A DNA stretch of 64,000 nt from Collinsella tanakaei YIT 12063 (lineage in GTDB: Bacteria; Actinomycetota; Coriobacteriia; Coriobacteriales; Coriobacteriaceae). The stretch covers positions 62,001-126,000 of the forward strand of contig NZ_JH126470.1 of NCBI RefSeq assembly GCF_000225705.1, in the 5' to 3' direction. Shown in pieces: positions 21,346 through 56,605 of this stretch. The notes beneath the pieces are model-generated. The model was not told the origin of the DNA. It saw only the letters and a program-made list of their open reading frames with translations, and searched no databases. A program made the position numbers and the translations under genes. Each line of letters starts with the position of its first letter. Position 1 is the stretch's first letter.

Positions 21346-21430
21346 CTGCTCCCATGTTCAAGAAGATCGGTTGATTTCTCTTCGGGAACAATGACGAGCG
21401 CTATGCTCCTTTGACCTCATAGGGGCGGCT

Positions 21431-21718
21431 GCTGAAAACGCCCTCCAGTTGGACTTGGTGCTCTGCTAAAAATGAGGTCCAGTTCACACGGGATGCTGAA
21501 AATGGCCTCCAGTTGGACTTGGCATTGGCGGGCGCCTGGTGCGCGTGGTTTCTATCCTGCGCTTTTGCGACGGCTCCTCGCTGGCCGCTGGATCAAAGTC
21601 CAACTGGAGCTCGTTTTCAGCGCCGCCAAGTTCAACTGGACCCAAAAAGTAGATGGTGGGTGTAAACGGAGGCTGTTTTCAGCAGAGACCCCAAGTCCAA
21701 CCGAAGCCCAAAAACAGC
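21431..21718. repeat. 288-bp imperfect inverted-repeat element, copy 1
   Basis: This copy and the one at 56160-56447 have the same length and align along their whole length with at most one-base shifts. Inner boxes TCCAGTTGGACTT occur at 21444 and 21508 and in the opposite sense (AAGTCCAACTGGA or near) at 21596, 21628 and 21691. The outer 90 bases on each side are imperfect complements of each other (CTCTGCTAAAA pairs with TTTTCAGCAGAG). The element lies between the ybaK-type gene and a minus-strand terminator. No known repeat family fits. It could be a non-autonomous mobile element or a structured RNA. Confidence 0.85.
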
Positions 21719-21726
21719 AAGGAGAC

Positions 21727-21779: not shown

Positions 21780-21887
21780 CTATGCGAAGAATATCCTGTT
21801 GATCATTATGTAGAGGATGATGATTGCGGCAATCATGGCTACGGCGATTTGTACGCCGGAACTCCCGTCGTTGTTGTTCTTACTCAT
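21780..21887 (-). CDS. 35-residue single-pass membrane protein
   Basis: A short gene coding MSKNNNDGSSGVQ followed by one hydrophobic segment (about residues 12-34, with AVAMIAAIIILYIMI) and ending FFA. The ATG overlaps the stop of the reading frame upstream (CATGAGTAA), so the two were translated as an operon. A strong terminator follows. An AAAGG site lies about nine bases before the start. No family is recognised; a Gly/Asn-rich head with one membrane helix is the usual layout of small membrane-bound regulators, but function cannot be inferred. Confidence 0.7.
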   Translation of the reverse strand: MSKNNNDGSSGVQIAVAMIAAIIILYIMINRIFFA

Positions 21888-55956: not shown

Positions 55957-56159
55957 CGAGGACCTTGCATCTCGCGATGCGGACGTCCCCGCGCGGACTG
56001 AGGCAACGCAGAAGTTTAAGCCGGGTTGGGATTGTTCCTAGCCCGGCTTTTTGCGTGCGGCGCGGATTTGCGCGCGGTGTTGAATCCGGGCCGAATGGGC
56101 GGGGCGCCGTGTGCGGTTTTGTCCGTAGCTGCGGGCGTGGCCGCGTTTGCGGCGTCGAC
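55957..56159. other. argR downstream region
   Basis: Holds the terminator at 56018-56052. The rest, up to the 288-bp element, shows no gene; a plus-strand frame opens from 56026 through the element but looks like chance. Confidence 0.4.
56018..56052 (+). terminator. terminator of the argR unit
   Basis: AAGCCGGG and CCCGGCTT pair across a 16-base loop, then five T. Confidence 0.85.
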
Positions 56160-56447
56160 GCTGTTTTCGAGCTTCAGTTGGACTTCGCCCTCTGCTGAAA
56201 TGGGCCTCCGATTCACTCCGCTTGCTATTAATGCGGTCCAGTTGGAGTTGCGTGGATTGCGGAATACAAAGAGCGTGGCTTCTACCTGCGCTTTCTCGCA
56301 AGAGATTGCATTAGCCCGCTGGGAGAAGTCCAACTGGACGTCATTTTCAGCATCCCCAAGTCCAACTGGACCTAAAAAGTAGCATGAGGGTGCGCACGGA
56401 CCTCAATTTCAGCAGAGGACGAAGTCCAACTGGAGCTCGAAAATAGC
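56160..56447. repeat. 288-bp imperfect inverted-repeat element, copy 2
   Basis: The outer 28 bases are complementary (26 of 28): GCTGTTTTCGAGCTTCAGTT... at the left, CGAAGTCCAACTGGAGCTCG... at the right. Inner boxes: TTCAGTTGGACTT at 56173, TCCAGTTGGAGTT at 56237, and AAGTCCAACTGGA at 56326, 56358 and 56422. Same length and order as copy 1 (21431-21718). It lies between the argR terminator and the terminator of the penicillin-binding protein gene. Confidence 0.85.
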
Positions 56448-56605
56448 GTGATCATCGAATGCCCGCCAGCGAGGCGAAGAGAAGTCGAGTCCAGGCTTGT
56501 CGACGGCGCCGGTGGTGACGACGTCGATGTTGCCGCGCCGCCGTGCAAGTAGGGCCCCGCGCCGGCGTAGTAGGCGCCATGGTGTGGCGGCGAGCAAAGA
56601 TAAAG

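Follow-up and report, generated by a model that had tools for sequence, protein, structure and literature searches.

Thirteen intergenic arrays of inverted boxes in Collinsella tanakaei, a possible double-stranded DNA target for a putative protein

The stretch of DNA under study, termed the window, comprises 64,000 nucleotides of Collinsella tanakaei YIT 12063 and corresponds to C4:62001-126000 in an assembly of 2.49 Mb and 20 unordered contigs. It contains two copies of an intergenic element at 21431-21718 and 56160-56447, which a first-pass annotation of the sequence had described as equal in length and box order, and both were confirmed as such. The true ends of copy 1 read TGCTG...CAGCA and lie at ~21430-21719, giving an element of ~290 bp. 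On the minus strand, an open reading frame for a membrane peptide of 35 residues (MSKNNNDGSSGVQIAVAMIAAIIILYIMINRIFFA) occupies positions 21780-21887, and an intrinsic terminator follows it at 21759-21732, just beyond copy 1. The parts of the two copies are as follows.

21430..21719, plus strand: element copy 1, whole array TGCTG...CAGCA, oriented by the central core
21430..21458, plus strand: copy 1 box U1, A-tract type
21464..21489, plus strand: copy 1 box U2, variant
21494..21522, plus strand: copy 1 box U3
21521..21595, plus strand: copy 1 center, 75 bp, unconserved apart from the core
21551..21568, plus strand: copy 1 asymmetric core TCTATCCTGCGCTTTTGC (family consensus TCTACCTGCGnTTTCTC), at the midpoint
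21596..21621, minus strand: copy 1 box R1
21628..21653, minus strand: copy 1 box R2, T-tract type
21659..21687, minus strand: copy 1 box R3, variant, counterpart of U2
21691..21719, minus strand: copy 1 box R4, T-tract type
56159..56449, plus strand: element copy 2, whole array
56159..56187, plus strand: copy 2 box U1, T-tract type
56193..56219, plus strand: copy 2 box U2, variant
56223..56251, plus strand: copy 2 box U3
56250..56325, plus strand: copy 2 center, 76 bp, with core TTCTACCTGCGCTTTCTC at ~56280-56297
56326..56352, minus strand: copy 2 box R1
56358..56383, minus strand: copy 2 box R2
56389..56417, minus strand: copy 2 box R3, variant
56420..56449, minus strand: copy 2 box R4

Oriented by the center, each array reads U1-U2-U3-center-R1-R2-R3-R4, with the R boxes in the opposite sense to the U boxes. 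The opposite sense of the two sides had been recognized earlier; the number of boxes had been given as six, three per side, whereas we count seven, three on the left and four on the right. A box consists of TGCTG, an A- or T-tract, CGNNN and TCCAGTTGGACTTGG. This unit of ~28 bp shows a weak inner dyad only and does not form a stable stem by itself, and the boxes follow one another every 31-32 bp, i.e., at about three helical turns. Some boxes had been considered degenerate. For U2 and R3, the second and sixth boxes, this does not hold, as they represent a consistent variant of the CTCCGTTTCACC type, carrying a TTTCACCC-like sequence in place of TTGGACTT, rather than random decay. U1 and R4, the outermost boxes, are inverted relative to each other, so that terminal inverted repeats are present. 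At these two boxes the A and T runs swap as blocks, which suggests an exchange of modules, and the number of outer boxes varies in four copies of the family (L095, L097, L098 and L099).

The center is 76 bp long in 12 of the 13 copies that we describe below and 75 bp in copy 1; correspondingly, the U3 and R1 cores start at a distance of 89 bp in 12 copies and of 88 bp in copy 1 of the window. It is almost unconserved except for the asymmetric core at its exact midpoint, and a search for a dyad or hairpin within the center gave no signal over column-shuffled controls. The first-pass description of the center as GC-rich applies to some copies (63-72%) and fails for others, copy 2 among them (47-55%; window 61%).

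A query of the whole genome with copy 1 returned related sites on contigs C1, C2, C3, C4, C6 and C8. We aligned the copies and derived from their middle 161 positions a model based on sequence alone, which found exactly 13 full copies in the genome (92-108 bits, E 3e-26 to 5e-31). The same model found no copy in 44 congeners, the sole other match being a marginal one in G065 (E 0.005). It also found none in an order-wide search of 298 other sampled genomes, where the filters were stricter and weak matches can be lost. No family member was recovered by blastn from plasmid and phage collections. A two-box pattern scan of 84,980 genomes and IMG/VR, which called for two exact boxes and would overlook a relative that has diverged, gave matches with few or no further boxes that we judged to be chance or low-complexity hits. 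Searches of the literature on Collinsella and repeats yielded nothing relevant. As judged from these searches, the family is found in one species only among the relatives and collections covered. The earlier statement that the element matches no known repeat family is supported. The species carries more than two copies, and the element was not found to be a piece of a known transposon or a decayed gene. Within the genome, the motif TCCAACTGRA occurs 57 times (reversed control, 12), and the 13 full elements account for 54 of these sites. Virtually no box stands alone, and the array itself is therefore the unit.

Five copies lie within 91 kb and another four within 67 kb, a clustering of nine of the 13 copies with a joint P of ~5e-5 under random placement; on contig C3, copies occur in both orientations within 95 kb. 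All 13 are located in non-coding DNA according to codon score and ORF/domain checks. The neighboring genes are convergent in some cases (e.g., ybaK with a small ORF, or argR with a penicillin-binding protein), divergent in three (lacI and glmS, fdx and dnaK, and the genes of a lectin-domain protein and an oxidoreductase) and in tandem in others (AI-2E to alaS, dxs to ftsE-like, lacI to uxaC). As the settings are of all three kinds and always non-coding, the copies are unlikely to serve as terminators or operators. The orthologous loci of congeners keep the genes, lack the element and have shorter spacers. Such empty sites, a check proposed with the first-pass annotation, were found at alaS (shorter by ~364 bp, G032), uxaC (~458 bp, G025) and dnaK (~325 bp, G025).

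The neighboring genomes have repeats of their own. The argR-PBP spacer of the congener G029 (L144:1160-1310; copies L150-L161) carries a distinct intergenic family of ~12 copies of 145 bp with TGTGCG...TTTGAAAC boxes in alternating sense. It shows strong compensatory changes in its first hairpin and is present in G029 only, none being found when 44 further genomes of the genus were searched. Five congeners (G029, G025, G060, G032 and G018; L208-L215) encode RAYT-like Y1 genes, most of them adjoined by inverted or palindromic repeats, and the samples of G025 and G032 contain other dispersed palindrome families as well. Compared with five congeners, which have between 3 and 28 rve matches, the genome of C. 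tanakaei is poor in transposases, with no Y1_Tnp and one weak rve match.

Comparison of the 13 copies shows that the center changes faster than the arms. Mean identity between copies is 0.40 in the center and 0.70-0.71 in the arms, with pairwise center identities mostly of 29-53%, and the minimum change per column amounts to 4.31 and 1.80, respectively. The copy tree is star-like with long tips. From U2 to R3, parsimony requires at least 595 substitutions and a single internal indel. Neutral bacterial DNA acquires roughly one indel per ten substitutions, and we therefore conclude that the length of the element is under constraint. The earlier observation that boxes and spacing are conserved despite many base differences thus extends from two copies to 13.

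Copy 2 (C4:118160) and the copy at C4:127185 belong to a common, older duplication of ~600 bp that includes flanking DNA and has diverged by ~17%. The differences are dense on the left, and none occur over 336 bp (L093/L094 2061-2396), an identical tract that stems from recent gene conversion between element copies. As conversion between copies occurs, concerted evolution may contribute to the conservation of the boxes. At the second locus (L094:1866-2668; C4:127.05-127.85 kb), an ABC-transporter ATPase gene is apparently cut after ~77 residues, and the 600-bp copy of the argR-PBP spacer, together with its element, begins at this break; a transaminase gene and a phosphonoacetaldehyde-hydrolase-like gene come next.

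With this anatomy at hand, we favor, at about even confidence, a reading in which the element is a double-stranded DNA target for a putative protein, its copies going back to an old burst and being kept by selection. The protein, probably as a multimer, would bind the seven boxes, which at a spacing of 32 bp (about three turns) share one helix face. Three of them flank the fixed 76-bp center with its asymmetric core on the left, and the other four, of opposite sense, on the right. The two bound arms would most likely be brought together, looping or bending the center and presenting the core. The thirteen intergenic sites would have arisen in an old burst of a small element in this lineage and would since have been retained by selection that acts on the boxes and their geometry rather than on base pairing. 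The proposal in the first-pass annotation of a multi-site protein target is supported by the sequence evidence. Bridging of the arms might serve the host or be a leftover of synapsis in a mobile element. Retention that benefits the host is favored because 13 long-diverged copies keep boxes and geometry while the remainder is near saturation, and dead insertions would not be expected to do so. Against this, the clustering of nine copies fits local spread as well as function, gene conversion does occur, the number of outer boxes varies, and mobile REPINs likewise show conserved ends around a variable spacer whose length is constant (PMC3116915).

A possible but less probable explanation is a miniature element (MITE) whose two ends each carry several transposase sites, as in the Tn7/Mu/Tn5053 group, the host gaining nothing and the boxes being conserved because they are needed for movement. 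The inverted arrays of like boxes, the outer TG...CA ends and the unequal counts of three and four would all fit such ends; in CAST elements, TnsB (shTnsB) binds three sites at the left and five at the right end (PMC9527255). Dispersed copies, a star-like tree and the empty congener loci with their shorter spacers are likewise expected from transposition. However, no target-site duplication was seen by eye in the aligned flanks of these old and diverged copies, no sharp element boundary was found, and the exact insertion junctions could not be aligned with congeners because the flanking intergenic DNA is too diverged. Neither a longer, gene-bearing relative nor an autonomous partner with the same ends was found in the genome, where no boxes occur outside the 13 elements. 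The only rve match of the genome is weak, resembles the istA of IS21 and lies on the small contig C12, which has no boxes. To our knowledge, strict 32-bp spacing and a conserved midpoint core are not features of Tn7/Mu/Tn5053-type ends. Finally, the centers are near saturation, yet length and boxes are kept, which is unexpected for dead insertions. The miniature mobile element suggested by the first-pass annotation is a possible origin of the family, in view of its 13 dispersed copies and the empty loci, although we found neither a terminal duplication nor an autonomous partner or sharp boundary.

Movement of a REP/REPIN-type repeat by a RAYT (Y1) transposase appears very improbable. In REPINs, too, the spacer varies in sequence at constant length, and like our family they are lineage-specific and intergenic and form inverted pairs (PMC3116915); moreover, congeners carry RAYT-like genes with adjoining palindromes. 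Yet PF01797 (Y1_Tnp) has no match in the genome of C. tanakaei and is present in five of five congeners tested. Compensatory changes, which are common in REPINs, are absent, and a single box forms no stable stem. A REP unit is a high-copy palindrome of 20-40 bp with a GTAG/CGTC head; here we find a unit of ~28 bp in 13 arrays.

The first-pass annotation had inferred selection for a long hairpin in transcribed RNA. Such an RNA might act at mRNA ends or have a regulatory role. Single copies do fold more strongly than shuffled sequence (z -4.7 and -13.1), a property that every inverted array necessarily has, and several copies lie between convergent genes. The arms, however, pair no better within a copy (0.734/0.666/0.814) than across copies (0.749/0.683/0.803). 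In a control, the same comparison gave 0.896 within and 0.704 between copies for the 145-bp family of G029. When the pairs U1:R4, U2:R3 and U3:R2 were imposed, 71.5% of the cells were paired compared to 73.1% in shuffles, and 497 of 500 shuffles paired as well or better; the pairs are not kept across copies by covariation. In nine of eleven copies, the U1:R4 helix is interrupted where A-tracts oppose each other, so that full pairing of the arms is, if anything, avoided. Such heterology has been proposed to shield inverted REP pairs from SbcCD-type cleavage (PMC3733652). In addition, three copies lie between divergent genes, and no Rfam covariance model matched at the gathering score. Taken together, these data refute the hairpin, which we regard as highly unlikely; the selection for structure that had been postulated holds for boxes and spacing and fails for base pairing. 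Least credible of all is intrinsically curved DNA that acts through its shape alone. A/T-tracts do occur repeatedly close to multiples of the helical repeat, and runs of A and of T interchange, but a wedge model revealed no excess curvature, either in the arms or in complete elements, and the GTCCAAC half of the box is kept as sequence.

Returning to the double-stranded DNA target, a more specific version, which we consider rather unlikely, is that the 13 arrays are the sites of an undescribed nucleoprotein system, which might for example bridge the chromosome, anchor it or recombine DNA site-specifically at the central core. If true, this system would operate in a single species on two paired arms, one with three and one with four protein boxes, all on the same helix face, and a counterpart of different sequence might exist in others.

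Among known repeats, the family resembles REPINs and GTAG REP-RAYT systems in being lineage-specific and intergenic, with conserved ends in inverted orientation and a spacer that varies in sequence but hardly in length (PMC3116915, PMC3733652). It differs from them in the lack of a Y1 transposase in the genome, of compensatory pairing and of singletons, in its copy number of 13, and in its seven long boxes per array in contrast to the two short palindromes of a REPIN. The streptococcal BOX element (boxA-boxB(n)-boxC) is likewise a small, modular interspersed repeat, whose module number varies and which is confined to few related species (PMC3049150). BOX, however, has unlike end modules, tandem boxB modules between them and a predicted RNA fold, whereas our family consists of like boxes with dyad symmetry about a fixed center and shows no covariation; unlike end modules, tandem middle modules and a conserved RNA fold are all absent from it. 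The nearest architectural match is provided by Tn7/Mu/Tn5053-type ends, including those of CAST elements, with several inverted boxes per end, TG...CA tips and unequal site numbers (PMC9527255). Unlike these, the family has neither cargo nor transposase, and it shows exact 32-bp spacing and a midpoint core in a fixed 76-bp center.

The sites parS, matS and Noc are modest in number, scattered between genes and kept by selection; they are single short palindromes common to related species. Our family shares with them conserved sites scattered between genes and differs in having arrays of 290 bp that occur in one species. The interspersed repeats of bacteria are mostly interpreted as remnants of mobile elements that form hairpins. 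In the present family, the spacer sequence is near saturation, while length, box register and midpoint core are fixed in 13 places and the arms do not covary, a combination that points to a DNA-protein machine, and the sites could be used as bait for finding it. The hairpin-type repeats of the neighboring species G029 can be told apart from this family by comparing pairing within and between copies.
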